NCBI GenBank assembly: GCA_012521555.1
Contig: JAAYMC010000052.1
Span: 1-64,000, forward strand
Direction of reading: 5' to 3'
From: Clostridiales bacterium
GTDB lineage: Bacteria > Bacillota > Clostridia > Oscillospirales > Oscillospiraceae
Length of the DNA: 64,000 nucleotides
Part shown: one piece after another, positions 14,391 to 30,055 of the stretch
Numbering within the stretch: the first letter of the stretch is position 1
Layout: each line of letters begins with the position of its first letter
The notes under the pieces: generated by a model
The model's input: only the letters and a program-made list of their open reading frames with translations
Databases searched by the model: none
What the model was told of the DNA's origin: nothing
Made by a program: the position numbers and the translations under genes

Positions 14391-15584
14391 ATGAAAAAAG
14401 TACTCGCACTTATTCTGAGCCTTGCGCTGCTCATCGCCGTGGCTGCCTGCGGCGGCGGGAAAGAGACAAGCTCCCCCGCGCCTTCGGCCGGCACCTCTTC
14501 TCCGTCCGAGCCCTCCAAAGGCATAGCCAAGGAAGACCTGAAAATCGGTTTTATCCACATCTCCGACCCGTCCGACAAGGGCTACACCTTTAACCACGAC
14601 CTGGGAACCTGGAAAATGGTTGAAGCGCTCGGCTTAAGCGAGGATCAGATTATCAATAAATACAACGTCGGCGAGGACGAAGGCTGCGCCGCCGCCATCG
14701 ACGAGCTGATCGAAGCCGGCTGCCAGATTATCTTCGCCACGAGCTTCGGCCACGGCAGCTACATGCAGGAAGCCGCCGCCGCCCATCCCGAAATCGAGTT
14801 CTGCCACGCGACCGGCTCCGGCGCCGCTTCTTCGGGCCTGCCGAACTTCCACAACTACTTTACCGCCATTTATGAAGCGCGCTTCCTCGGCGGCATCGCG
14901 GCGGGCCTGAAGCTTAAGGAGCTGGGCGAGACGAAGCTCGGCTACGTCGCCGCGTATCCTTACGCCGAAGTCATCTCGGGCTATACCGCGTTCTATCTCG
15001 GCGCGAAATCCGTTCTCCCCGAAGTGACGATGGACGTCATCTACACCAACAGCTGGCACGACCCCGTCCTTGAGGCGCAGGCCGCGCAGACGCTCATCGA
15101 CGGCGGCTGCAAGGTCATCAGCCAGCACTCCGACTCCACCGCCCCGGCCACGACGGCCCAGAGCAACGGCGTGTTCCAGGTCGGCTACAACGCCGATATG
15201 ATTGACGCGGCGCCCAACGCCTCCATCATCTCCGCGCGCAGCGACTGGAGCGTCTACCTCATCTACGCCGTCACCCAGCTCATGAACGGCGAGCCCATCG
15301 CCACCGACTGGTGCGCCGGCCTTTCCGAAGGCGCCGTCTACATGAGCCCGCTCAACGAGGCCATCGCCGCCCCCGGCACGAAGGAAGCCATTGAGAAGGC
15401 CAAGCAGGACATCATCGACGGCAAGCTCCACGTCTTTGCCGGACCGCTCACGGGCTCGGGCGTCAACTTCAGCGGCGAGACCGAGACCATCACCATCCCC
15501 GAAGGCGAATGGTTCGAGGAGTCCAAGAAGCAGTCCGCCCCGTACTGGTTCTATATCATCGACGGCATCAACGTTCTCGGTTAA
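14391..15584 (+). CDS. BMP-family ABC transporter substrate-binding lipoprotein (probably nucleoside/purine)
   Basis: Lipobox LLIAVAACGGG; KIGFIHISDPSDKGYTFNHDLG and GCQIIFATSFGHG typical of BMP-family lipoproteins. Confidence 0.92.
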   Translation: MKKVLALILSLALLIAVAACGGGKETSSPAPSAGTSSPSEPSKGIAKEDLKIGFIHISDPSDKGYTFNHDLGTWKMVEALGLSEDQIINKYNVGEDEGCAAAIDELIEAGCQIIFATSFGHGSYMQEAAAAHPEIEFCHATGSGAASSGLPNFHNYFTAIYEARFLGGIAAGLKLKELGETKLGYVAAYPYAEVISGYTAFYLGAKSVLPEVTMDVIYTNSWHDPVLEAQAAQTLIDGGCKVISQHSDSTAPATTAQSNGVFQVGYNADMIDAAPNASIISARSDWSVYLIYAVTQLMNGEPIATDWCAGLSEGAVYMSPLNEAIAAPGTKEAIEKAKQDIIDGKLHVFAGPLTGSGVNFSGETETITIPEGEWFEESKKQSAPYWFYIIDGINVLG

Positions 15585-15604
15585 CACTCCCTGTATAATA
15601 CGCC

Positions 15605-15655
15605 CGCCCGCACGTGCAAATTTGCCTGTGCGGGCGGCGCGTTTCTTTTGTTTTT
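15605..15655 (+). terminator. Intrinsic terminator between the substrate-binding gene and the ABC ATPase gene
   Basis: CGCCCGCAC/GTGCGGGCG stem followed by a T-rich tract. Confidence 0.75.
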
Positions 15656-15824
15656 TCTCAAAGTGCCAAAATCGGCTAAAATCGTGCCGTTTCGATCTGT
15701 TCCGCATTGCCTTTGGAGGCATTTTATGATAGCATATCTCGTTGTTTATACGGCTGTTTTTGGTGGCACGCTATAAACAATGGAAAGCGCTATCCGGCGG
15801 ATTTAGTTTGGAAAGGGTGGCCTC

Positions 15825-17363
15825 ATGAATCCTGAGATTGCCATTGAGATGAGGGATATCACAAAAACGTTCGGCAACGTCGTGGCCAACAACAAGGTCT
15901 GCCTCGACGTGTACCGCGGGGAGATCCTCGCGCTTCTCGGCGAAAACGGCAGCGGCAAGACGACGCTCATGAATATGCTCTCCGGCATTTACTACCCGGA
16001 CAGCGGCCAGATATTCATCGACGGCAAGGAAGTGACCATCCGCTCCCCGAAGGACGCCATCGAGCTGGGCATCGGCATGGTCCACCAGCACTTTAAGCTC
16101 GTGGACAACCTCACCGCCGCCGAGAACATCATCCTGGGGCTCAAGGGCAAGGGGCGCCTGAACCGGAAAAAGGTCGCGGAAGAGGTTCTCGAAATCAGCC
16201 GGAAGTACGGCTTTGATATTAACCCCAACAAGAAAATCTACGATATGTCCGTCTCCGAAAAGCAGACGGTGGAAATCATCAAGGTCCTCTACCGCGGCGC
16301 GAATATCCTCATCCTCGACGAACCGACGGCCGTCCTGACCGTGCAGGAGACCGAAAAGCTTTTCGACATCCTCCGCGCCATGAAAAAGGACGGCAAGGCG
16401 ATTATCATCATCACGCACAAGCTCAACGAAGTCCTCGCCCTGTCCGACCGCGTCACCGTCTTGCGCAAGGGCGAGACCGTCGGGACGGTCCTCACGCGCG
16501 ACGCGACGGTGATGTCCCTGACGGAGATGATGGTCGGCCGCGCCGTGTCGCTCAACATCGAGCGGCCGGAGCCGGTCAACCCCCAGCCGCGCCTGATTGT
16601 CAACAAAATAAGCTGCGTGAACAAAGACGGCGTCAAAGTGCTCGACAACGTGAGCTTCATCGCCTACAGCGGCGAAATCCTCGGCATCGCCGGCATCTCC
16701 GGCAGCGGCCAGAAGGAGCTTCTCGAAAGCATCGCGGGCCTCGTGCCCTTAAGCCCCGGCAGCAGCATCACCTACTACCCCGAAGGGCCGGACAAGCCCG
16801 TGGAGCTCGTCGGCAAGCGGCCGCTTGAGATCCGCAAGCTCGGCGTCGCGCTCTCGTTCGTGCCGGAAGACCGGCTCGGCATGGGCCTTGTGGGCAGCAT
16901 GGACCTTGCCGACAACATGATGCTGCGCAGCTATGCGGAAGACCGCTTCTTTACAAACCGCAAGGGGCCGCGGCATCTCGCGGAGGAAGTCGTCCGCCAG
17001 CTTCACGTCGTGACCCCGAGCGTCTCCACGCCCGTCAGCCGCCTGTCGGGCGGAAACGTGCAGAAGGTGCTCGTCGGCCGCGAGATCTCGCTCGCGCCGA
17101 AAGTGCTCATGACGGCTTACGCCGTCCGCGGGCTGGACATCAACACGTCCTACACCATCTACGGCCTGCTCAACGAACAGAAGAAAAACGGCGTCGCCGT
17201 CATCTACGTCGGCGAGGACCTCGACGTCCTCCTCCAGCTGTGCGACCGCATCCTCGTCCTCTGCTCGGGGCGGGTAAACGGCATTCTGGACGCGCGGACG
17301 GCGACGCGCGAGGAAATCGGGCTGAGAATGACCGGCGCAAAGGGGGGCGAACACCATGAGTAA
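15825..17363 (+). CDS. Double-NBD ABC transporter ATP-binding protein (YufO/NupO-like)
   Basis: NBD1 LLGENGSGKTTLMNMLSG and ILILDEPTAVLTVQE; NBD2 GISGSGQKELLESIAG, LSGGNVQKVLVGREI, AVRGLDINTS. Confidence 0.93.
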   Translation: MNPEIAIEMRDITKTFGNVVANNKVCLDVYRGEILALLGENGSGKTTLMNMLSGIYYPDSGQIFIDGKEVTIRSPKDAIELGIGMVHQHFKLVDNLTAAENIILGLKGKGRLNRKKVAEEVLEISRKYGFDINPNKKIYDMSVSEKQTVEIIKVLYRGANILILDEPTAVLTVQETEKLFDILRAMKKDGKAIIIITHKLNEVLALSDRVTVLRKGETVGTVLTRDATVMSLTEMMVGRAVSLNIERPEPVNPQPRLIVNKISCVNKDGVKVLDNVSFIAYSGEILGIAGISGSGQKELLESIAGLVPLSPGSSITYYPEGPDKPVELVGKRPLEIRKLGVALSFVPEDRLGMGLVGSMDLADNMMLRSYAEDRFFTNRKGPRHLAEEVVRQLHVVTPSVSTPVSRLSGGNVQKVLVGREISLAPKVLMTAYAVRGLDINTSYTIYGLLNEQKKNGVAVIYVGEDLDVLLQLCDRILVLCSGRVNGILDARTATREEIGLRMTGAKGGEHHE

Positions 17364-18465
17364 CACCCGTCACGATGTGCACGAGCCGCTCGTCCGGATC
17401 GCCAAGCGCGGCGAAATGGCCGCGTGGAAGATGTGGATCATCCGGATAGCGGCCATCTTCCTCGCCCTGCTCACCGGCGCCGTGATCATCCTCCTGCTCG
17501 GGCACAACCCCGTGGCCGTCTATATCGACATGGTCACCGGCTCGCTTGCGACGAAGACGTCCCGCGTGGCCTCGATGAAAATCTTCATCCCGCTCCTCGG
17601 CGCGGCCATCGCCATTGCGCCGGCCTTCAGGATGCGCTTTTGGAATATCGGCGCGGAGGGGCAGATCCTCGCCGGCGCCATCGCCGCGACGTATTTCGCG
17701 CTGTTTCAGTACCGGAACCTTGCGCGCCCCGTGCTGCTTATTGTCATGTTCCTCGCCGCGGCCGTCGCCGGCGGCGTCTGGGCGCTCATTCCCGCCGCCT
17801 TTAAGGCGCGGTTTGACACGAACGAGACGCTCTTTACGCTCATGCTCAACTACGTCGCCGTCGGCATCGTCAAGTATCTGCGCATGGGCCCGTGGCGCAG
17901 CCCCACGAGCGCGGGCTTCCCGAAAATCGATATGTTCGACCAGTCGGCGCGCCTGCCGCTGCTGTTCGGCGTAAATATCGGCTGGGTGCTCGTCCTCGTG
18001 CTGGCCGTCCTCATGTACGTCTACATCCGCTACACGAAGCAGGGGTATGAGCTGACCGTCGTGGGCGAGAGCGTCAACACGGCAAAGTACGCCGGCATGA
18101 GCGTGGGGCGGATTATCGTGCGCACGGCGTTCCTCTCCGGCGCCATCGCGGGCATCGTGGGCTTCCTCATCGTCTCCGGCTCGGCCTACACCTTGAGCGA
18201 CACCACCTCCGGCGGGTACGGCTTTACGGCCATCACCGTCGCGTGGCTGGCCAAGCTCAACCCCATCGTGATGATTATCATCACGGCGTTCCTCGCCATC
18301 CTCACGAAGGGCGCCAACACCATCCAGACGAACTTCAAGATTCCGGCCTCGGCGTCGTCCGTCCTCATCGGCCTGATCTTGTTCTTCATGCTCGGCTGCG
18401 AGTTCTTCATCAATTTCCGTCTCATCTTCCGAAAGGGAAAAAAGCATGAGGTGGCCCGCTTATGA
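17356..18465 (+). CDS. ABC transporter permease (BMP-type nucleoside importer)
   Basis: RMRFWNIGAEGQILAGAIAA motif; multiple TMs; 8-nt overlap with the ATPase gene. Confidence 0.92.
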   Translation: MSNTRHDVHEPLVRIAKRGEMAAWKMWIIRIAAIFLALLTGAVIILLLGHNPVAVYIDMVTGSLATKTSRVASMKIFIPLLGAAIAIAPAFRMRFWNIGAEGQILAGAIAATYFALFQYRNLARPVLLIVMFLAAAVAGGVWALIPAAFKARFDTNETLFTLMLNYVAVGIVKYLRMGPWRSPTSAGFPKIDMFDQSARLPLLFGVNIGWVLVLVLAVLMYVYIRYTKQGYELTVVGESVNTAKYAGMSVGRIIVRTAFLSGAIAGIVGFLIVSGSAYTLSDTTSGGYGFTAITVAWLAKLNPIVMIIITAFLAILTKGANTIQTNFKIPASASSVLIGLILFFMLGCEFFINFRLIFRKGKKHEVARL

Positions 18466-19445
18466 ATATTCTCAACTTCTTTATCGCCTCCGTCCTCTCC
18501 GCATGCCCGCTGCTGTTCGGCACCCTCGGCGAGACGCTGACGGAGCGCTCCGGAAACTTAAACCTCGGCGTCGAGGGAATGATGTTCATGGGCGGCATCG
18601 CGGGGCTTGCCGGCTCGTACTACTATGAGACGCTTTCGGAAAACCCCGTCGTGTGGGTGAGCGTCGTCATCGCCATCGTCTGCTCCTTCCTGTGCGCGGC
18701 CTTCGGCGCGCTCATCTACAGCGTGCTGACCATCACCTTCCGCGCCAACCAGAACGTGACGGGCCTGGCGCTGACCATCTTCGGGACGGGCTTCGGCAAC
18801 TTCTTCGGCGAGCTCCTCAGCAACAGCGCCGGCGGCTACGCCGCCGTGGGGAACGCCACGAAGGTTGCTTTCAACGCGCCGATCTCCGCAACGCTCGCAA
18901 GCTCCTCCGTCGTCGGCAAGCTCCTGTTTTCGTACAACTTCCTCGTCTACATCGCCCTCGCGCTGGCCCTGTTCCTGACGTACTTCATCAACCACACCCG
19001 AACGGGCCTCAACCTCTGGGCCGTCGGCGAGCGTCACGCCGCCGCGGATGCCGCCGGCATCAACGTCACGCGGTATAAGTATCTCGCCACCTGTATCGGC
19101 GGCGGCATCACGGGCCTTGGCGGCATGTACATCGTGATGAACTCGGCCAGCGGCGTCGGCGGCGTGTGGGTGCACAACTGCATCTCCGGGTACGGGTGGC
19201 TGTCCGTCGCCCTCGTCATCTTCGCGATGTGGCACCCGTCCCGCGCAATTTTCGCGTCGTTCGTATTTGGCGCGCTGTCGGTGGCGCGGTTTTACTTCCC
19301 CGTCTCCTTCCTGCCGGACGCGATTTACGAGGTCGTGCCGTATATCGCCACCATCGTGGTGCTCATCTCGGTGAGCATGCGCAGCCGCAGAAGGCTGCAG
19401 CCGCCGGCAAGCCTCGGCCTTGCCTACTTCCGCGAGGAGCGGTAA
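18462..19445 (+). CDS. ABC transporter permease (BMP-type nucleoside importer)
   Basis: LFGTLGETLTERSGNLNLGVEGMMFMG motif; 4-nt overlap with the preceding permease. Confidence 0.92.
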   Translation: MNILNFFIASVLSACPLLFGTLGETLTERSGNLNLGVEGMMFMGGIAGLAGSYYYETLSENPVVWVSVVIAIVCSFLCAAFGALIYSVLTITFRANQNVTGLALTIFGTGFGNFFGELLSNSAGGYAAVGNATKVAFNAPISATLASSSVVGKLLFSYNFLVYIALALALFLTYFINHTRTGLNLWAVGERHAAADAAGINVTRYKYLATCIGGGITGLGGMYIVMNSASGVGGVWVHNCISGYGWLSVALVIFAMWHPSRAIFASFVFGALSVARFYFPVSFLPDAIYEVVPYIATIVVLISVSMRSRRRLQPPASLGLAYFREER

Positions 19446-19657: not shown

Positions 19658-20392
19658 TTAATCGTCCCTGTCCCAGTTGTGGTAGACGTTCTGGACGTCG
19701 TCGTTGTCCTCGAACAGGTCGAGCATTTTCTCCATGTTCTTGATGTCTTCCGGCTTTGTGAGCTGGACGTAGTTTTGCGGCACCATTTCAATCTGGGCGG
19801 AGAGGAACTTGTACTTCCCTTCCAGCGCGCCGGCAACTTCCGTAAACTTGTCCGGGTCCGTGTACACCTCGAACACGGCCTCGTCCGTCACGACGTCTTC
19901 CGCGCCGGCTTCGAGGGCGTCCATCATGACGTCGTCTTCGGAAAGGTCGCCGTCCTCGTTGTCGATGATGATGACGCCTTTTCGGTCAAACAGCCACGAG
20001 ACGCACCCCGTCGTGCCCATGTTGCCGCCGTATTTGTCAAACGTGTGGCGCACATCGGAAGCCGTCCTGTTGCGGTTGTCCGTCATCGCCTCGACGATGA
20101 CGGCCACGCCGCCGGGCCCGTAGCCTTCGTACGTCACGCGCTCGTAACTGTCGCCGCTGCCGCCGCCGAGCGCTTTTTCAATCGTCCTTTTGATGTTGTC
20201 GCTGGGCATGTTGTTCGCCTTTGCCTTGGCGATGGCGTTGGCAAGGCGCGTGTTATTCGCCGGGTCGCCGATTCCCGTCTCCTTGACGGCGACGATGATT
20301 TCTCTGGCGATTTTCGTGAAGATTTTCGCCCTCTTGGCGTCGACGGCGCTCTTCGTCCTCATGATGTTATGCCATTTGGAATGTCCAGACAT
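19658..20392 (-). CDS. YebC/PmpR-family regulatory/translation protein
   Basis: MSGHSKWHNIMRTKSAVDAKRAKIFTKIAREI signature. Confidence 0.95.
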   Translation of the reverse strand: MSGHSKWHNIMRTKSAVDAKRAKIFTKIAREIIVAVKETGIGDPANNTRLANAIAKAKANNMPSDNIKRTIEKALGGGSGDSYERVTYEGYGPGGVAVIVEAMTDNRNRTASDVRHTFDKYGGNMGTTGCVSWLFDRKGVIIIDNEDGDLSEDDVMMDALEAGAEDVVTDEAVFEVYTDPDKFTEVAGALEGKYKFLSAQIEMVPQNYVQLTKPEDIKNMEKMLDLFEDNDDVQNVYHNWDRDD

Positions 20393-20587
20393 AGATGACC
20401 TCTCCTTGACGCGGGATTAACTAATGCAGCTGACGACTGACCCTTAAAAAGGCGGAAAATATTTTACCACACACGGCGCCGCCTTACAAGTGCGCATTTG
20501 GAGCTGCCAAAGAAAAATTGCCGGATGCGTATAAATCTCCTGAAATGGTCAAAACTAGTACCGTACAATTTAACAGGAGGGCCTACA

Positions 20588-20734
20588 ATGGGTCAAAAAG
20601 CCAACGAAAACCGCAACCGCAACCCCTCTCAGAACCAGCAAAACCAGCAAAACCAGCGGAATCAGCAAAACCAGCAGAACCAGCAGCAAAACCAGAGAAA
20701 CCAGCAGCAAAACCAGCAGTACCAGAACAGGTGA
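20588..20734 (+). CDS. Asn/Gln-rich low-complexity small protein (about 48 aa), unknown function
   Basis: RBS AACAGGAGGGCCTACA before ATG 20588; translation MGQKANENRNRNPSQNQQNQQNQRNQQNQQNQQQNQRNQQQNQQYQNR; strong terminator just downstream. Confidence 0.7.
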   Translation: MGQKANENRNRNPSQNQQNQQNQRNQQNQQNQQQNQRNQQQNQQYQNR

Positions 20735-20741
20735 AACCGCC

Positions 20742-20771
20742 GGAGCAGCTTATAGCTGCTCCGATTTTTTA
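20742..20771 (+). terminator. Intrinsic terminator of the Asn/Gln-rich gene
   Basis: GGAGCAGCT TAT AGCTGCTCC GATTTTTTAT. Confidence 0.9.
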
Positions 20772-22667
20772 TCCCTTGGCCTTCCGCCGCAGCCGCATCA
20801 GGGCGCCTTCGCGCGCCTCCAGCCGCTCCCGGATGAGCACGGCGTAGACGATGGCGGCCATCGTCAGCAGGAAATCAAGCGCCGTGACGGTCCACAGCCG
20901 CATCACGCCGAGGATGACAAGCAGCCCGATGAGCGCCTTTGCGGCGATGGGCATCAGGATTACGCTGACCGCCGTCCGCCGGATGCTCCGCGCGAACATG
21001 ACGGCGCGGGCGATTTCGGGGAGGCGGTCGTTTTGCAAAACGACATCCGCCGCGTCGCAGACCGGGTTGGCCGCGCCGCCCGTCGCGATGCCGAGGTCGG
21101 CGGCTTTCAGCAGCGGCAGGTCTTTTTCGTCCCTGACGATGTACGCCATCTTCTCGCCCTTTATCTGCATCTCGTGCAGGAGCTTTATCCGCTGTACGCG
21201 CTCCTCGCCGCGCAGCTCGGCGTAAAACTCGCTGATGCCGAGGCGCATCGCCGTCTCCGCGCATCCGTCGTGGTCGCTTTCGGAGATGAGCACGATGCGG
21301 TCGACGCCTTCGTCCGCCATCGCGTGCACGAAGGGGACGGCGTCGCCCCGCAGGGTGTCCGCAAAGCCGATTTCGCCGGCGAGGCTGCCGTTGACGGCGA
21401 GGTATTCCGTCGTCCCCGCCGGGCGCTCGGGGCCGACGTCAATTCCCAGGGATTCCATGCACGCGGCGGAGCCCATCACGAGCCTGAGCGGCCCGACCGT
21501 GGCCTCCACGCCGCCGGGCAGGACGTTGTAATCCTTAATCCTCAGCACGTCGGGCTTTTCGCCGGAGGCGGCAAGCACCGCTTCGGCGTTCGGCCCTTCG
21601 AGGTAAGCGTAGGCGTACGACGCGAGCAGGAGCAGCTGCTCGCGGGTGAGCGTGTCCGACCGCGTGTGGCTGATCTGCCGCCCCGTCGTCAGGGACGCGA
21701 CGTCGACGGCGGCGGTCGTCGTCCGCGAGAGCGTGTCCACCGCGCCAAATGAGCGGAAGAGCACGCCGCGGCGCAAGCTCGCCGTCACGCCCGCGAAATA
21801 CACGAGCGGCACGGCGAGGACGAGCGCGTTGTGGCCGGACGTGAGGAGCAGGCCGAGCGCCCTTTTCAGCCAGACGGGGTAGCTTGCCTTAAACAGCAGC
21901 GGCACCAGCACGCCGACGATTACGGCGGCGGCCAGGACAAGCGGCGCGAAAAGGCGGGAGAAAATCGTCGTGCGCCCCATCCGGTGCGGGTAAGCGCCGT
22001 CGTTGTCGCGGAACCTCTCCGCAAGGGAGACGACCGCGTCGTGCCGCGCGTAAAGCAGCAGCGTCCCCTCCACGACGACGCTCCCTTCGTCTACCGCGTC
22101 GCCCTCGTCCACGGTTCTGGGGCCTTCCCCGCCCGGCTGCGCGATTTTTGCCTTCCCTTCCGAGACGGTCCCGGCGACCGGCACCGTCTCCCCCGGATTA
22201 AACGCAAGCACGTCTCCGGAGACGACTTCGCTGAGCGGGACGGAAACGGTTTTTCCGTCTTCCACGCGGCGGACCGTCCTGCCCTCTTCCGGCACGGCGG
22301 CGCCGATAAACATCTCGGCCAGCGCCGCGGCAAACGCGGCGGCGATCGTGCCGACGCGGTAGACAAGCAGCGCCGCGGTCCCTTCCTCCCCGGCGCGCAG
22401 GGCAAAGGCGCCGGCCGTCGCGAGCACGAAGAGCAGCTCCTCGTCGATGCCGCGGCCGCGCAGGAGCTTGAGGATTGCCGACACAATCAGGTCGAGGCAC
22501 AAAATGATGGCCGACGCGGCGAAAAAGAACGTGGCGCCGAGGGGCGGCGCGGGCAGAAACCGCCCGAGCAGAAACAGCGCGAGCGCGAGCAGCGCCGCGG
22601 AGAGCTTGGCAAGGCCCGCCTCCTGCGGCATCTTAAAGCGCATTCCCAAAGTGCTTTTTCTTTTCAT
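20769..22667 (-). CDS. P1B-type ATPase homologue with degenerate catalytic motifs (candidate pseudo-ATPase)
   Basis: NALVLAVPL...ASLRRGVLFRSFGAVDTLSRTTTAAVD aligns to the CPCALVLAVPL...RRGxLxKGGxxLExLxxxxxxxFDKTGTLT region; HAD-like GIATGGAANPVCDAADVVL; motif losses described in findings. Confidence 0.85.
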   Translation of the reverse strand: MKRKSTLGMRFKMPQEAGLAKLSAALLALALFLLGRFLPAPPLGATFFFAASAIILCLDLIVSAILKLLRGRGIDEELLFVLATAGAFALRAGEEGTAALLVYRVGTIAAAFAAALAEMFIGAAVPEEGRTVRRVEDGKTVSVPLSEVVSGDVLAFNPGETVPVAGTVSEGKAKIAQPGGEGPRTVDEGDAVDEGSVVVEGTLLLYARHDAVVSLAERFRDNDGAYPHRMGRTTIFSRLFAPLVLAAAVIVGVLVPLLFKASYPVWLKRALGLLLTSGHNALVLAVPLVYFAGVTASLRRGVLFRSFGAVDTLSRTTTAAVDVASLTTGRQISHTRSDTLTREQLLLLASYAYAYLEGPNAEAVLAASGEKPDVLRIKDYNVLPGGVEATVGPLRLVMGSAACMESLGIDVGPERPAGTTEYLAVNGSLAGEIGFADTLRGDAVPFVHAMADEGVDRIVLISESDHDGCAETAMRLGISEFYAELRGEERVQRIKLLHEMQIKGEKMAYIVRDEKDLPLLKAADLGIATGGAANPVCDAADVVLQNDRLPEIARAVMFARSIRRTAVSVILMPIAAKALIGLLVILGVMRLWTVTALDFLLTMAAIVYAVLIRERLEAREGALMRLRRKAKG

Positions 22668-22691
22668 GGCAAGCTCCTTCTCTCGGGCGGA

Positions 22692-23339
22692 TTATTCTGG
22701 TTTTGCCGGCCTTGACGCACCCGTGTCGCAAAACGGGCGGATGCTGCACGCCTCGCATTTCGGCCGCCGGGCGGTGCAGACGGCGCGGCCGTGCAGGACG
22801 AGGCGGTGGCAGAAATCGTTTGCCTTTTCGGGCGGGAGGATGCTTTTCAGTTCTTCTTCAATTTTCACGGGGTCCTTCGTCGAGACGAGGCCGATGCGGT
22901 TTGTCAGGCGAATGCAGTGCGTGTCCACCACGACGGCGGGCTTTTTATGCACGTCGCCGAGGATGAGGTTTGCCGTCTTCCGCCCCACGCCGGGCAGCCT
23001 TAAGAGCTCTTCCATCGTGTCCGGCACGCGCCCGCCGAAATCGTCCAGGAGCATCTGCGCCGCGCGGACGATGTCCCGGGCTTTGGCCCGGAAAAAGCCG
23101 CAGGAGTGGATGATTTTCTCCACGTCGGCGACGTCGGCCTGGGCAAACGCCTCCAGAGTGGGGTACTTTTCAAACAGCGCGGGCGTGATTTGGTTGACGC
23201 GCTCGTCCGTGCACTGGGCGGCAAGCCGCGTGGCAAACAGCAGCTCGTAGTCCTTCGTATAATGGAGGGAACAGGCGGCTTCGGGGTAGTCCCTCTCCAG
23301 CCGGCTGATAATCTCGTCAATTGGTTTTTTTGCCTGCAT
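22692..23339 (-). CDS. nth: Endonuclease III
   Basis: HhH LLRLPGVGRKTANLILGD, VDTHCIRLTNRIGL, C-terminal 4Fe-4S Cys (CTARRPKCEACSIRPFC). Confidence 0.95.
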   Translation of the reverse strand: MQAKKPIDEIISRLERDYPEAACSLHYTKDYELLFATRLAAQCTDERVNQITPALFEKYPTLEAFAQADVADVEKIIHSCGFFRAKARDIVRAAQMLLDDFGGRVPDTMEELLRLPGVGRKTANLILGDVHKKPAVVVDTHCIRLTNRIGLVSTKDPVKIEEELKSILPPEKANDFCHRLVLHGRAVCTARRPKCEACSIRPFCDTGASRPAKPE

Positions 23340-23425
23340 AAACGCTCTCCAGACGGTCGAAAATTCTCTCGCTTACAGCATAGCACGAACATCGTCGAAA
23401 CGCTACATTTTTGCGCTTTTAAGTG

Positions 23426-23454
23426 TTGAAAAGTGTTTTTTTCTTTTATATAAT
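23426..23454 (+). promoter_or_regulatory. Predicted sigma-A promoter for glyA
   Basis: TTGAAA (23426-23431), 17-bp spacer, TATAAT (23449-23454). Confidence 0.75.
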
Positions 23455-23501
23455 GTGCGTTGTATAAATTTTCATCAGATCGCTTACTGGAGGAACATTT
23501 C

Positions 23502-24749
23502 GTGTTAAGAGAGACGATGGCCTATATCTCAGGCTATGACCCGGAAGTCGGCGCGGCGATAGAGAGAGAATTTGCACGCCAGCGCCGCAACATTGAGCTG
23601 ATTGCGTCGGAAAACTGCGTGTCCATCCCCGTCCTGCTCGCGGCCGGCTCAGTGCTCACAAACAAATACGCGGAAGGTTACCCCGGAAACCGGTATTACG
23701 GCGGCTGCGAAGAAGTCGACGCGGTCGAGCAGCTGGCGATCGAGCGTGCGAAAAAGCTCTTCGGCGCGAAATTCGCCAACGTGCAGCCGCATTCCGGCGT
23801 TTCGGCCAACTACGCCGCGTACATGGCCCTCACCGAGCCGGGCGACACCGTCCTCGGCATGAACCTCGACCACGGCGGCCACCTCTCCCACGGCAACCCC
23901 GCCAACTTCTCCGGGAAATACTATAACATTGTTTCCTACGGCGTCACAGCCGATACCAACCTGATTGACTACGACGAAGTGCGGCGCCTTGCCCTCAAAT
24001 ACCGCCCGAAGATGATTATCGCGGGCGCGTCGGCCTACCCGCGCGTCATCGACTTTAAGGCCTTCTCCGAAATCACGAAGGAAGCCGGCGCGTACCTCAT
24101 GTGCGACATCGCGCACATCGCCGGGCTCGTCGCCGCCGGCGAGCACCCGTCCCCGATGCCGTACGCCGACATCGTCACCACCACAACGCACAAGACGCTC
24201 CGCGGCCCGCGCGGCGGCATGATCCTCACGAACGACCCTGAAATCGCCAAGAGAGTCAACAGCGCCGTCTTCCCCGGCGCGCAGGGCGGCCCGCTCATGC
24301 ACATCATCGCCGCAAAAGCCGTCGCCCTCGGCGAGGCGCTCCGGCCCGAGTTTAAGGAATACCAGCGGCAGATCCGCAAAAACGCGAAGGCGCTGGCCGA
24401 GGCGCTCTTAGAGCGCGGCTTCAACCTCGTCTCGGGCGGGACGGACAACCACCTTATGCTCGTCGACCTGCGCCCGTTTAACATCACGGGGCGCGAGATG
24501 GAGCGCAAGCTCGATCAGGTCTACATCACCGCCAACAAGAATAAAATCCCGAACGACCCGCAAAGCGCCGCCCTCACGAGCGGCATCCGCCTCGGCACGC
24601 CCGCCGTCACGGCGCGCGGCTTTAAGGAGGAGGCCATGGTGAAGGTGGCGGAGCTGATTTACCTCGCCGCGTCGGATTTTGAAAACAAAGCCGGCTATAT
24701 CCGCGAAGAAGTGCGGAAACTCACGGATAAATATCCGCTTTACGAATAG
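23502..24749 (+). CDS. glyA: Serine hydroxymethyltransferase
   Basis: [44 protein letters not shown] motif; GTG start at 23502 fits RBS GGAGGA (ORF track starts at 23460). Confidence 0.95.
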
Positions 24750-24828
24750 GCTGTTTTTGGGTACAATGGAATCAGACACCCCATGCGGGCGGGCAAAAGC
24801 CCGCCCTTTACGTTTCGGAGGTGAAGCC

Positions 24829-26094
24829 ATGTACCGCCCCCTCGCCGACGAAATCCGCCCGACGTCGTTTGACGACATCGTCGGGCAGGAGCACATCATG
24901 GGCCTGCTCCGCCGCATCGTGGACAGCGGGAAAATCCCCAACATGATTTTCTACGGCCCGTCCGGCACGGGCAAAACGACGGTGGCCAACATCATCGCCG
25001 CGCAGTCCGGCCGCACGCTGCACAAGCTCAACGCCACGACGGCAAGCCTGTCCGACATCAAGGACATCATCGCCCAGCTCGACACTTTTCTCTCCCCCAA
25101 CGGCGTGCTGCTCTACCTCGACGAGATTCAGTACTTCAACAAAAAGCAGCAGCAGTCCCTTCTGGAGTTTATCGAAAACGGGAAAATCACGCTCATCGCC
25201 GCCACGACGGAAAACCCCTATTTCTACGTCTACAACGCGATATTGAGCCGCTCGACGGTCTTTGAGTTCAAGGCCGTCCCGCCGGAACAGGTGGAAAAGG
25301 CCGTGCGCCGCGCCATCGCCATCCTCTCCGAACGCGCGGGCGTCGAGCCGGTCATCGAGCCGGGCGTGGTGGAGCATATCAGCGCCGCCTGCGGCGGGGA
25401 CGTGCGCAAGGCCATCAACGCCGTGGAGCTGCTCTTTGCCGCCTCGGCAAGCAGCGATGGCGTCACGCTGCGGCTGGAGGACGCGCGCGCCCTCTCCCAG
25501 CGCAGCGCCATGCGGTACGACCGGGACGGCGACAGCCACTACGACATCCTCTCCGCCCTTCAAAAGTCCATCCGCGGCTCGGACCCGGACGCGGCCGTCC
25601 ATTACCTGGGGCGCCTCATCGAGGCCGGGGACATCCTCTCCGCCTGCCGGCGCCTGCTCGTCACCGCCTGCGAGGATGTGGGGCTTGCCCACCCGCAGGC
25701 CATCGCCATCGTCAAGGCCTGCGTGGACAGCGCCCTGCAGGTCGGCCTCCCCGAGGCGCGGATTCCCCTGGGCATGGCGGCCGTCTTTCTGGCCACGGCG
25801 CCGAAATCAAATTCCGCCTACATGGCCATCGAGACGGCGCTCTCGGACATAAAAAAAGGGCGCTCGGGGGACATCCCCCGGCACCTGCAAAACGTCCACG
25901 CAGACACCACCGGCATGGAGCGGGAGCAGGGCTACCTCTACCCCCACGACTTCCCGAACCACTGGGTGGCGCAGCAGTACCTGCCCGACGCAATCAAAAA
26001 CCGCGTCTACTACAGGTACGGCGAGAACAAGACGGAACAGGCGGCGAAACGCTACTGGGACCTCATCAAAAATCCGCAGAAAACGGAGGGATAA
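24829..26094 (+). CDS. rarA: Replication-associated recombination protein A (RarA/MgsA family AAA ATPase)
   Basis: MYRPLADEIRPTSFDDIVGQEHIMG; FYGPSGTGKTTVANIIA; C-terminal YPHDFPNHWVAQQYLPD; ATG 24829 fits RBS CGGAGGTGAAGCC. Confidence 0.93.
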   Translation: MYRPLADEIRPTSFDDIVGQEHIMGLLRRIVDSGKIPNMIFYGPSGTGKTTVANIIAAQSGRTLHKLNATTASLSDIKDIIAQLDTFLSPNGVLLYLDEIQYFNKKQQQSLLEFIENGKITLIAATTENPYFYVYNAILSRSTVFEFKAVPPEQVEKAVRRAIAILSERAGVEPVIEPGVVEHISAACGGDVRKAINAVELLFAASASSDGVTLRLEDARALSQRSAMRYDRDGDSHYDILSALQKSIRGSDPDAAVHYLGRLIEAGDILSACRRLLVTACEDVGLAHPQAIAIVKACVDSALQVGLPEARIPLGMAAVFLATAPKSNSAYMAIETALSDIKKGRSGDIPRHLQNVHADTTGMEREQGYLYPHDFPNHWVAQQYLPDAIKNRVYYRYGENKTEQAAKRYWDLIKNPQKTEG

Positions 26095-26097
26095 GGT

Positions 26098-26301
26098 TTG
26101 GACGTGCGGGTTGGCGACGTGCTCACGCTCAAAAAGAAGCACCCGTGCGGCTCTCAGGCCTGGCAGGTGCTCCGGATCGGGGCGGATTTCAAGCTCCGCT
26201 GCCTTGGCTGCGGGCATCTGATTATGAGCCCCCGCAGCAACATCGAAAAGCATATCAGGAAAATCACGCGCGACGGGGAAACCTTCTCCCCTATCGCATG
26301 A
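26098..26301 (+). CDS. DUF951-type small protein
   Basis: VRVGDVLTLKKKHPCGSQAWQVLRIGADFKLRCLGCGHLIMSPRSNIEKHIRKI. Confidence 0.88.
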   Translation: MDVRVGDVLTLKKKHPCGSQAWQVLRIGADFKLRCLGCGHLIMSPRSNIEKHIRKITRDGETFSPIA

Positions 26302-27115
26302 TTTCGTCAAGAATATCGTGGACGCCCGGGTAGTATAGAAATGCCGTCTTTATCCCCGCGCGCAAGGCATGCATGAGCTTGCGCCGGATTGTCGCCGCGT
26401 TGTCAAACAGCACGAAGTGCGTCTGCCGGCCGTCGCGGTAGATGAAATACGACGCGCACAGGTCTTCGGAGTAGTGGATTTTCGGACTGTATGTACCAAA
26501 CAGCGCCTCCAGCTCCTCCTGCGTCAGCTCCCGCCCTGTCCCCGTTTTGGCGGGCACGGTAAAGTCCATTCGCACGCGCGCGATCTCCAGGGCGACGTTT
26601 TCCGCCCCGTACCGCGCGGCCGCCTCCATCAGATGGCGCACAAGGCTCCCGCCGGACAGCGCCGTCTGGACGAGCACGACGGCGCCGGGCACGATCTCCG
26701 CCATCTCCTGCGGCACGTAGACGGTAAGCCCCGTCTGCTCCCGAATGGACGCCAGGCGCGCCGCCAGCGCCGCCACGCCGAGCCCCAGCCGCTCCCCCGG
26801 GGTGATGACGACGCCCGTAAACCCGCCCGCCTCGCACTCTGCGCAGATTTCGTCGATAAGGCCGGAGAGCGGGCCGCCGCCGGTGTAGCCGCTCGCGTCG
26901 AGCACCATCACGCCGCCGGCATAGCGCGGCGCGCCCTGCGCGCGGAAGAGGTGGTAGCCGCGGCCGATTTTGTACGTGATGTGGGCGACGGGGAGCCCCG
27001 TCCGCGCGGCCTGTTCAATGGACTGTTTCGGAGCGGCAAGGATAATGTTCGTTTTATTCTCCAATTGTCCATCCTTCCTTTTCTGTGTTAAAATCAAGCG
27101 GCGCCCGTCCGGCAA
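26291..27115 (-). CDS. Uncharacterised protein; possible GH18-like TIM-barrel without an evident catalytic motif
   Basis: Intact 274-aa ORF; alternating beta/alpha pattern (GGVMVLDASGYTGGG, FTGVVITPGERLG, VALEIARVRMDF, C-terminal DGRQTHFVLFDNAATIRRKLMHALRAGIKTAFLYYPG). Confidence 0.6.
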   Translation of the reverse strand: MPDGRRLILTQKRKDGQLENKTNIILAAPKQSIEQAARTGLPVAHITYKIGRGYHLFRAQGAPRYAGGVMVLDASGYTGGGPLSGLIDEICAECEAGGFTGVVITPGERLGLGVAALAARLASIREQTGLTVYVPQEMAEIVPGAVVLVQTALSGGSLVRHLMEAAARYGAENVALEIARVRMDFTVPAKTGTGRELTQEELEALFGTYSPKIHYSEDLCASYFIYRDGRQTHFVLFDNAATIRRKLMHALRAGIKTAFLYYPGVHDILDEIMR

Positions 27116-27173
27116 CGCGGGGCCGGCACGCTTTTCGTACCAGTATTACAAATATGAACGCGGGAGGGCCGAT

Positions 27174-27683
27174 ATGAGCTTTTCTTTAATACCGGACTAC
27201 TCCTTTCCCGATATCTGCAAGGTCACGCCGGAGTTCCTGAAGGAAAAAGGCATCCGCCTTTTGCTTTTGGACCTCGACAATACCATGGCGCCTTACGGCA
27301 CCGTCGTCCCCACGCGGGAAATCGCCGAATGGGCTGAAAACATCCGCAAAAGCGGCGTTAAGACGTTTATCCTGACGAACAACAACGGCTCGGAGCGCGT
27401 CAAGGCCCTGTCGGAGGCGCTCGGCATGGGCTACATCATGGGCGCGCGAAAGCCGCTTGTGACGGGCATCAACCGCGCGCTCGAAAAGCTCGGCTATAGC
27501 CGCGAGGAGACGGCGCTCGCCGGCGACCAGATTTTCACCGACGTGCTCGCCGCCAACTGCGCGGGGATCACGTCCATCGTCGTGCGCCCGATTAAAATCA
27601 CAAGTCCCCTCCTCAACCTGCGCTACTGGCTGGAGGCGCCTTTCCGCGCCCTGTGCCCCAACAAGATGGACTGTCCGCGGTGA
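27174..27683 (+). CDS. YqeG-family HAD IIIA-type phosphatase
   Basis: LLLLDLDNTMAPYG, FILTNNNGSERV, ALAGDQIFTDVLAANCAG. Confidence 0.92.
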   Translation: MSFSLIPDYSFPDICKVTPEFLKEKGIRLLLLDLDNTMAPYGTVVPTREIAEWAENIRKSGVKTFILTNNNGSERVKALSEALGMGYIMGARKPLVTGINRALEKLGYSREETALAGDQIFTDVLAANCAGITSIVVRPIKITSPLLNLRYWLEAPFRALCPNKMDCPR

Positions 27684-27729
27684 GCGGCCCGCAAGGGCGC
27701 TTGCCGTTTTCTTAAAGGAGGAAACAAAA

Positions 27730-28794
27730 ATGGACACCGTATCGAAAATCCGCGAAAAGCTACAGGAGTCTGGCCTCGACGCGCTCCTTGTCACGGGCGC
27801 GGCGAGCCGGCGGTACGCCACGGGCTTTGCCTCCTCCGCCGGCGCGTTTTTCGTCACGCGGCGCAGCGCCGTGTTTTTGACGGACTCGCGCTACATCGAG
27901 GCGGCGCAGAAAGCCATCCCGCTTGCCGAGGTGCGGTGCGTGACGGCCGCGGAGACGTACGCATGGCACATTAAGCAAATCATGGAAGCGGAAAGCATCG
28001 CCGCCGTCGGCTTTGAAGAGGAGGCGATGACGTATGCCGACTACCAGTCGTGGAAGGAGAAAATCGGGGACGTGCTGCGCCCGGCGCAGAAAATCCTCAC
28101 GGAGCTGCGCGTGTCGAAAAGCCGCGAGGAGCTGGATGCCCTCAAAGCGGCGCAGGCGATCGCCGAGGAGGCGTTCAATGCCGTTTTGCCGCTGATTTCA
28201 ACGGAAATGACCGAGCGTGAGCTTGCCGCGGAGCTCATTTACAGGCTCCTTCGCTGCGGCGCGGATGATATTTCCTTCGAGCCGATTGTCGTTTCCGGCG
28301 TCCGCTCGAGTATGCCGCACGGCGTTCCCGGAGATGATAAGATTCAGAAAGGCTTTCTCACGATTGATTTCGGCGCGAAAAAGAACGGTTGGTGCTCCGA
28401 TACGACGCGCACCCTCTGCGTCGGCGAGCCGACGGCGGAGATGCGGAAAGTGTACGAGACGGTGCTGGCCGCGCAGGAAGCCGGCATCGCCGCCGCGCGC
28501 GCGGGCATTAGCGGGCGTGACGTGGACGCCGCGGCGCGGCGCGTCATCGAGGAAGCCGGATACGGGGCGTATTTCGGCCACGGGTTCGGCCACGGGCTGG
28601 GGCTCGACGTGCACGAGGCGCCCACGCTCTCGCCGTCAAACGCCGAGCCGCTGCCCGCCGGCGCCGTTGTGTCGGCGGAGCCGGGCATCTACATCCCCGG
28701 GCGGTTCGGCGTGCGCATCGAAGACGTGCTGTATCTCACCGAGGACGGCTGCGAAAACATCACGACTTTGCCAAAACACCTTATCATTGTGTAA
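27730..28794 (+). CDS. M24-family Xaa-Pro aminopeptidase/dipeptidase
   Basis: LTIDFGAKKNGWCSDTTRT, GHGFGHGLGLDVHEAPTLSP, VVSAEPGIYIPGRFGVRIED. Confidence 0.93.
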   Translation: MDTVSKIREKLQESGLDALLVTGAASRRYATGFASSAGAFFVTRRSAVFLTDSRYIEAAQKAIPLAEVRCVTAAETYAWHIKQIMEAESIAAVGFEEEAMTYADYQSWKEKIGDVLRPAQKILTELRVSKSREELDALKAAQAIAEEAFNAVLPLISTEMTERELAAELIYRLLRCGADDISFEPIVVSGVRSSMPHGVPGDDKIQKGFLTIDFGAKKNGWCSDTTRTLCVGEPTAEMRKVYETVLAAQEAGIAAARAGISGRDVDAAARRVIEEAGYGAYFGHGFGHGLGLDVHEAPTLSPSNAEPLPAGAVVSAEPGIYIPGRFGVRIEDVLYLTEDGCENITTLPKHLIIV

Positions 28795-28802
28795 ATTTTT
28801 TC

Positions 28803-28831
28803 TTGCAATAGGCGGATTAATAGGATAAAAT
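28803..28831 (+). promoter_or_regulatory. Predicted sigma-A promoter for efp
   Basis: TTGCAA (28803-28808), 17-bp spacer, TAAAAT (28826-28831). Confidence 0.55.
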
Positions 28832-28867
28832 AACGCAGTTAGAAGACACTATACGGGAGGATAAATC

Positions 28868-29431
28868 ATGATCTCAGCAGGTGATTTCAGAAACGGCGTA
28901 ACCTTCGAATGGGACGGCAAGGTCATGCAGGTCATTGAGTTTCAGCATGTCAAGCCGGGTAAAGGCGCAGCGTTCGTACGGACGAAGATGCGGAACGTGC
29001 TCACTGGCGCCGTCACTGAGACCTCCTTTAGCCCTACGGATAAATTTGAAACCGCGTATATCGAGCGCCGTGAAATGGAGTACAGCTACAACGACGGCAA
29101 CCTGTACTATTTCATGGACATGGAAACCTACGAGCTTGAACCCATAGACGGCAGCCTGCTCGGCGACAGTTTCAAATTTGTCAAGGAGAACATGCCGTGC
29201 ACCGTTCTCTCCTATAAGGGCAAGGTCTTTAGTGTCGAGCCGCCGACCTTCGTCGAGCTCGTCGTCACGCAGACCGAACCGGGTGTCAGAGGCGATACGG
29301 CGACGAACGTCACAAAGCCCGCCATCGTTGAGACGGGCGCGGAAGTCAAGGTCCCGCTCTTTATCAACGTCGGTGATAAAATCCGGATCGACACACGTTC
29401 AGGCGAATACCTCGAGCGCGCCAAGGGCTAA
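28868..29431 (+). CDS. efp: Elongation factor P
   Basis: [44 protein letters not shown]...[18 protein letters not shown]. Confidence 0.97.
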
Positions 29432-29497
29432 AGCGCCCCGCCTGTTCAGTCACCGCGCCGCGCAAACACGACTGCTCATTACTAAGGAGGTATCGTT

Positions 29498-30055
29498 ATG
29501 ACAGTGACCGAAAAAGTAGCGTATCTGAAGGGCCTTGTCGACGGACTCGGGCTCGACACCGAGAAGAAGGAAGGCAAAATCCTGGCCGCCATCATCGACA
29601 CGCTCGAGGACATCTCCCTGGACCTCGAGGCGCTGCGCGCGTCAAACGAGGATTTAAGCGAGCAGTTTAACTACCTCGCCGAGGATCTGTCCGAGCTTGA
29701 AGACGCCGTCTACGGCGAGGACGAGGACGGCGACGAGGACGACGAGGAGGAGGACGAAGAAGAGGACTCCCCCCGTTACCGCTACGGCCGCTGCTGCGAT
29801 GACGAGGAAGGCTGCTGCGGGCATGACGACTACGCCTACGAAGTCACCTGCCCGTCGTGCAACGCCGAAATCATCATCGACGACGAGGACCTCGACAAAG
29901 GCAGCGTTGTCTGCCCCGGCTGCGGCGCAACGCTCGACCTCGAGTACGACGAGGGCGAGGACTACGAAGACGAAGAAGACGAAGATTACGAGGAAGAGGA
30001 AGACTACGAGGAAATCGGGGACGAGGACGTCGCCGAGCAAAACGACGAGGAATGA
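29498..30055 (+). CDS. CD1247-type N-terminal domain protein with zinc ribbon and long acidic tracts
   Basis: EKVAYLKGLVDGLGLDTEKKEGKILAAIIDTLEDI; CPSC...CPGCGATL; poly-Asp/Glu segments. Confidence 0.8.
   Translation: MTVTEKVAYLKGLVDGLGLDTEKKEGKILAAIIDTLEDISLDLEALRASNEDLSEQFNYLAEDLSELEDAVYGEDEDGDEDDEEEDEEEDSPRYRYGRCCDDEEGCCGHDDYAYEVTCPSCNAEIIIDDEDLDKGSVVCPGCGATLDLEYDEGEDYEDEEDEDYEEEEDYEEIGDEDVAEQNDEE

Follow-up and report, generated by a model that had tools for sequence, protein, structure and literature searches.

Transport by P1B pumps needs metal ligation at the CPC motif and phosphorylation of the DKTGT Asp. For these pumps, both the role of the catalytic Asp and that of the TGE motif in dephosphorylation have been described (PMC8880997). 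DKTGT is carried by 99.77% of identified P-type ATPases, and a UniProtKB survey using a classifier found 22 of 9,634 without an intact version of it, for which 'non-functional or highly specialized' is one reading given by the authors (PMC3896382). In the literature searched, which covered few subscription journals, this survey was the only prior art found for a P-type pseudo-ATPase and no described lineage of this kind came up, which is weak evidence of absence. Pseudokinases and pseudophosphatases have been reviewed, and the words ATPase and transporter are absent from the text of that review (PMC10211241).

A candidate for such a lineage is P0001, a gene found in Sporobacter. The window described here is the whole stretch of DNA analysed, 64,000 nt in length, in which the gene and its closest neighbours lie as follows:

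20769..22667, minus strand: candidate pseudo-P1B-ATPase gene P0001, 632 aa, recognised by NCBIfam and Pfam profiles, a match to SsZntA and a structural model
19658..20392, minus strand: yebC/TACO1
20588..20734, plus strand: small Q/N-rich ORF of 48 aa, between P0001 and yebC and on the opposite strand to P0001
22692..23339, minus strand: nth (endonuclease III), 24 bp upstream of P0001 and on the same strand

P0001 is a full-length P1B-ATPase homologue, with a similarity far beyond chance. An earlier note on this DNA had claimed an uninterrupted homologue of 632 aa, which stands: the frame has zero internal stops, and its position was given correctly, with the strand (minus) omitted. The heavy-metal P-type ATPase profile TIGR01525 matches residues 77-608 (E=4.6e-53), at 180.9 bits and thus below its curated cut-off of 346.25 bits. 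The E1-E2 domain PF00122 is found above the Pfam cut-off (E=3e-16), while no P-type hydrolase domain is found at the Pfam cut-off. By sequence, the closest solved relative is the SsZntA structure 4umv (E=7.5e-35). An AlphaFold model built with 48 homologues (pLDDT 87.6, pTM 0.80) predicts the full P-type fold, with eight membrane helices and the A, P and N domains, and its top PDB matches are SsZntA (4umw/4umv) and CopA (7r0g).

P0001 therefore resembles ZntA, a P1B-2 Zn/Cd exporter (SsZntA 4umv/4umw), in predicted fold, helix layout, M5 Lys and M6 Asp. Unlike ZntA, it lacks CPC, the TGE Glu, all of DKTGT except the Asp, HP, the GDG and Asn of the hinge, and a metal-binding N-terminus. It is also similar to the P1B-4 ATPase sCoaT, having eight helices and no classical N-terminal heavy-metal-binding domain; in contrast to P0001, sCoaT pumps actively and its catalytic core is intact (PMC8880997). 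Alignment with 41 motif-intact relatives was used to call the motifs, and places the altered and retained sites as follows:

22125..22136, minus strand: eroded TGES loop, P178-G179-G180-E181, with a 3-residue deletion just before it
21828..21839, minus strand: eroded CPC site in M4, S277-G278-H279-N280 where S-C-P-C is expected
21690..21704, minus strand: eroded phosphorylation loop, D322-V-A-S-L against D-K-T-G-T-L, with the Asp kept and one residue short
21591..21599, minus strand: eroded N-domain HP motif, E-G-P against S-x-H-P
21120..21137, minus strand: eroded GDGxND hinge, V511-R-D-E-K-D516, with the last Asp alone kept
20937..20939, minus strand: retained M5 Lys K577, aligned with the SsZntA counter-ion Lys
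20874..20876, minus strand: retained M6 Asp D598, aligned with SsZntA D714, with the invariant V-G after it lost

Further changes include SES in place of TGD, a GxG that is one residue shorter and Arg for the P-domain Lys. Of the 90 columns without variation among the intact relatives, P0001 keeps 46, while intact rows, assessed by leave-one-out, keep at least 97%. The alignment agrees with the replacement of CPC by GHN, the shortened D-VASLTTG loop and the eroded TGES-like loop described in the earlier note. The Asp of the loop (D322, codon 21702-21704) aligns with the phosphorylation-site Asp. One caveat concerns E181, which lies one residue past the TGE position, so that a register shift is possible. 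The proposed loss of GDGxND was partly right, since GDG and the Asn are lost and D516 is kept. Similarly, the statement that all core motifs are eroded can be extended to HP, TGD, GxG and the Lys, but has to exclude D322, D516, K577 and D598, which remain. Intact motifs elsewhere in the protein, including DKTGT and GDGxND, were looked for and none were found.

Of the features of an active pump, P0001 thus lacks CPC, DKTGT, TGE (with the E181 caveat), GDGxND and HP. Without metal ligands, the ATP-binding His and most of the phosphorylation site, it is very unlikely to pump, and we infer that the protein is catalytically inactive. Nevertheless, the retention of D322, the M5 Lys, the M6 Asp and E181 makes some residual catalysis or ion conduction possible.

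Orthologues of P0001 are present in all six available Sporobacter genomes: that of the window (G000), a Clostridiales MAG (G001), the draft G002, an S. termitidis MAG (G003), the isolate JHJ (G004, formerly Sporobacter sp. CM) and S. termitidis DSM 10068 (G005). Two of these, DSM 10068 and JHJ, are cultured strains. The G002 orthologue is partial as contig C135 ends inside the gene, and the other five are complete. The C-terminal half of the G002 gene was not recovered, and contig C77, which begins just before yebC, has no recognisable tail. No stops or frameshifts occur in the six orthologues. The comparison of orthologues proposed in the earlier note thus yields six open frames, five of them shown at the same locus. 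At the positions of TGES, CPC, DKTGT and GDGxND, in that order, they read:

S. termitidis: TGSS, GAS, DKTGT, GDGASD
G001: NGKA, SPA, DKTGT, GNGADD
JHJ: TGDT, SGT, DKTGV, GDGVAD
G003: TGAR, SFS, SKTGT, GDGDAD
P0001 (window, G000): PGGE, GHN, D-VAS, VRDEKD
G002: SGGE, GQN, D-MAT, hinge beyond the contig end

These sequences leave a negligible probability to an assembly or sequencing error in a MAG. The genome of the window, a draft in 149 contigs, is probably a MAG, but an error is rejected because the same motifs are replaced in G002, an independent draft, at 73% identity. It is also rejected because eroded orthologues are carried by S. termitidis DSM 10068 and by the complete genome of isolate JHJ, which was sequenced by Illumina and Nanopore at 325x.

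The losses are graded, and not coordinated across four motifs as had been claimed. None of the six orthologues has either CPC Cys or the TGE Glu, and all five complete copies lack the hinge Asn. Metal binding and dephosphorylation were therefore probably lost before the group diverged. DKTGT, HP and TGD are intact in some members and lost in others; HP, for example, is GP in P0001 and is kept by the four other complete orthologues. As the CPC and TGE losses are universal and these are partial, loss was stepwise, with that of DKTGT coming later than that of CPC and TGE and in some lineages only. Among the 90 intact-invariant columns, eight are lost in every pseudo member in which the column is seen. 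The eight include four functional residues, namely the Glu of TGE, the two Cys of CPC and the Asn of the hinge, and two more follow the M6 Asp. The M5 Lys and M6 Asp are themselves kept in P0001 and most orthologues.

The less eroded members might suggest that these proteins still pump with a changed chemistry, in which D322 or its neighbours act and something other than a soft metal is carried. The cut-offs of TIGR01525 and TIGR01512 are passed by the four less eroded complete orthologues (L010, L011, L012 and L013), and three have the DKTGT core, one of them as DKTGV. P0001 itself keeps D322 and D516. In addition, JHJ has TGD where TGE is expected, and E181 of P0001 lies one residue later. 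However, P0001 has lost HP, TGD, the P-domain Lys and most of GDGxND along with DKTGT, no complete member keeps the hinge Asn, and the TGE motif has been described as the one that brings about dephosphorylation (PMC8880997). A pump of altered chemistry is accordingly very improbable. Four of the five complete orthologues lie above the NCBIfam heavy-metal ATPase cut-off, and automatic annotation would probably name these as working pumps.

The six Sporobacter orthologues form one clade (support 99/100). An intact gene from another genus, G128, is placed beside this clade (support 82/65, or 80/49 with more rows). It lies 184 bp upstream of yebC, all motifs are present in it, its N-terminus is rich in Cys and His, and an ArsR-type gene precedes it; no ArsR-type gene was seen beside P0001. 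On the strength of this synteny, tree support being modest, the ancestor of P0001 was an ordinary regulated ZntA-type metal pump at the yebC locus. Orthologues with normal motifs, which the earlier note had taken as a sign of local decay or sequencing error, are thus found outside the genus only. Since all six in-genus orthologues are altered, the G128 gene points to ancestry and not to either of these. Outside Sporobacter, 63 of the 67 P1B sequences retrieved have all four motifs by pattern; of the four exceptions, two are CPC sites missed by the pattern and two are degenerate copies of the kind described below. Within the clade, the stem branch of G000 and G002 is very long, at about 3 changes per column. 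There was thus a phase in which constraint changed or relaxed before being re-established.

The first half of P0001 is under purifying selection. Between G000 and G002, codons 1-326 give dN 0.18, dS 0.80 and an omega of 0.22 (bootstrap 95% 0.15-0.31), or 0.12 by YN00; these values cover the N-terminal half only, with a high dS (0.8-1.3). The intact ZntA of these two genomes, analysed in the same way, has an omega of 0.227, and most flanking genes range from 0.06 to 0.18. An outlier among the flanking ORFs, at 26369, has an omega of 1.1 and is probably no gene in that frame. Omega is 0.15 over residues 231-326, the stretch with the eroded CPC and the first part of the phosphorylation loop. In deeper pairs of orthologues, omega is saturated or uninformative. 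Neutral simulation to genus-level divergence leads to about 14-16 in-frame stops, and no stop-free ORF was found at d>=0.4.

These results bear on a reading as slow decay, in which a redundant ZntA paralogue is becoming a pseudogene and its frame is open by luck in GC-rich DNA. A motif-intact ZntA is also present in each Sporobacter genome searched, making a second pump redundant, and erosion is progressive between lineages, with long branches. Nevertheless, this reading is improbable. Six orthologues have no stop or frameshift where about 14-16 stops would be expected if neutral, omega over the first half equals that of ZntA and falls to 0.15 in the region of the lost CPC, and P0001 has a confident predicted fold. 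Altered orthologues shared across the genus, together with an omega equal to that of ZntA, make both decay and sequencing error unlikely. The dN/dS comparison that had been suggested for this gene is thus in favour of the view in the earlier note, namely that it encodes a non-pumping protein under selection and is probably not a case of recent decay.

The best explanation, to which we give a probability of roughly 60%, is that P0001 is a pseudo-ATPase with a P1B (ZntA-type) fold that does not pump and is kept by selection as a scaffold or regulator acting through protein contacts. That it is a non-pumping protein under selection is, on the sequence evidence, highly probable; given this, the odds of a scaffold or regulatory partner role are about even. 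P0001 combines homology to an active family and loss of its motifs with purifying selection (in codons 1-326 only), two features expected of a pseudoenzyme. It is therefore comparable to pseudokinases and pseudophosphatases, which likewise keep the fold and have lost catalytic motifs under selection (PMC10211241). As in the proteins of the UniProtKB survey, it is recognisably P-type without an intact phosphorylation motif. Unlike those, which were described as single point changes and of which some are perhaps sequencing errors, the P0001 clade loses several motifs genus-wide, with synteny and purifying selection (PMC3896382).

In the mechanism proposed, an intact ZntA-type pump at the yebC locus would first have lost its metal site, TGE Glu and hinge Asn. 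The G000 lineage then lost the phosphorylation loop and the ATP-binding HP, with the phosphorylation-loop loss shared by G002. The resulting P0001 may act in the membrane as a scaffold or regulator that is static or switches slowly, with contacts to, for example, the intact ZntA or envelope proteins. Less eroded orthologues (S. termitidis, G001 and JHJ) may still bind ATP; perhaps they also form an E-P but fail to break it down. Since the gene is retained even in a lineage whose phosphorylation loop and ATP site are unusable, the function common to the clade should require neither phosphorylation nor the ATP cycle.

A scaffold or regulatory partner is the most likely role, followed by a passive channel or exchanger, in which the transmembrane half conducts an ion or small molecule and the soluble domains gate it without ATP turnover. 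All eight helices are modelled in P0001, the M5 Lys and M6 Asp are kept there and in most orthologues, and a relative in another genus, g3, that has no A-domain keeps its helices. However, the M4 site differs per genome (GHN, GQN, GAS, SPA, SFS and SGT), as if no ligand were bound. The invariant V-G after the M6 Asp is also lost, and few M5-M6 positions are common to all members. A channel is thus unlikely. If the reading as a selected pseudo-ATPase is true, a pump has turned pseudoenzyme with intermediates preserved in two cultured strains, and the P1B fold has a use apart from pumping that could be found by genetics.

A separate case of erosion is seen in genus g3. There, the G007 copy L163 (G007:C9:164-2107) is a 648-aa P1B paralogue with TGE and CPC intact and a broken P-domain (DKTGS, SED for TGD, YP for HP and a GNGIGN hinge). 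The syntenic G135 copy (G135:C98, L180 7395-9149) is an open frame of 584 aa with RPL for CPC, EKTGI for DKTGT and a GDAAKD hinge. It lacks the whole A-domain, with the Pfam E1-E2 match covering profile positions 109-180 only. Its AlphaFold model (pLDDT 81.8) predicts eight helices, P and N domains and a low-confidence linker (139-168) at the place of the A-domain. The g3 pair and the Sporobacter genes share a wider clade, in which the pair stands next to intact genes, and a single origin of the Sporobacter and g3 pseudo-ATPases is not rejected by the AU test (p=0.36). Nevertheless, judging by the motifs, the losses of CPC and TGE must be independent in the two groups because the G007 copy still has both.

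It is rather probable, in our view, that a pump has become a pseudo-ATPase more than once in one bacterial family, with a retained fold whose conserved cellular job needs neither metal nor ATP turnover. The series would run from the working pump of G128 through S. termitidis, G001 and JHJ, which keep the DKTGT core, to P0001, and in another genus to G135.

Neighbours of the g3 locus, named by eye, are a tyrosine recombinase, an M23 peptidase and an M50-like protein. Two other unusual genes were seen. L104 2214-4115 (JAFRAF010000203.1, Oscillospiraceae RGIG2311) is a very divergent degenerate P1B gene with one in-frame stop, a branch of 7 changes per column, TGES and DKTGT lost, CPT for CPC and a GDGVDD hinge. 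Its neighbours, again named by eye, are an EamA-like gene and a dipicolinate-synthase-A-like gene. No close relative was found among 30 relatives searched, and L104 is treated as a separate case that may be dead. In S. termitidis, L068 1441-3573 (G005:C20, minus strand) encodes a 711-aa P-type ATPase with DKTGTLT and GDGVND intact, AGH for TGE and SPS for CPC. It scores 256 bits to TIGR01525, below the cut-off, and may represent another unusual class.

Around the locus, yebC adjoins the gene in five of six Sporobacter genomes and the intact G128 orthologue, and in G002 lies at the start of another contig. In G001, G003, G004 and G005, the gene has yebC on one side and, on the other, a CD1247-like zinc-ribbon gene that follows efp. 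The block from nth to CD1247 is inverted in G000, which brings nth upstream and leaves yebC next downstream; in G002, nth is likewise upstream. Within the stretches fetched, the inverted block is nth-glyA-rarA-HAD-pepP-efp-CD1247 (window 19658-30055) relative to those four genomes, and one inversion breakpoint adjoins the pseudo-ATPase gene.

The 376-bp gap between P0001 and yebC has no RNA element by Rfam, and no tRNA was found in the window by ARAGORN. The Q/N-rich ORF in this gap is seen in all six Sporobacter genomes, where its length is 37-48 aa, or 69 aa in G000 when counted from an earlier start, and has no NCBIfam match. A terminator-like hairpin follows it at 20741-20763. Beyond yebC, window positions 14391-19445 (plus strand) encode a PnrA/Bmp-type substrate-binding protein, an ABC ATPase and two permeases, which together make up an ordinary ABC importer of the nucleoside- or B6-like kind.
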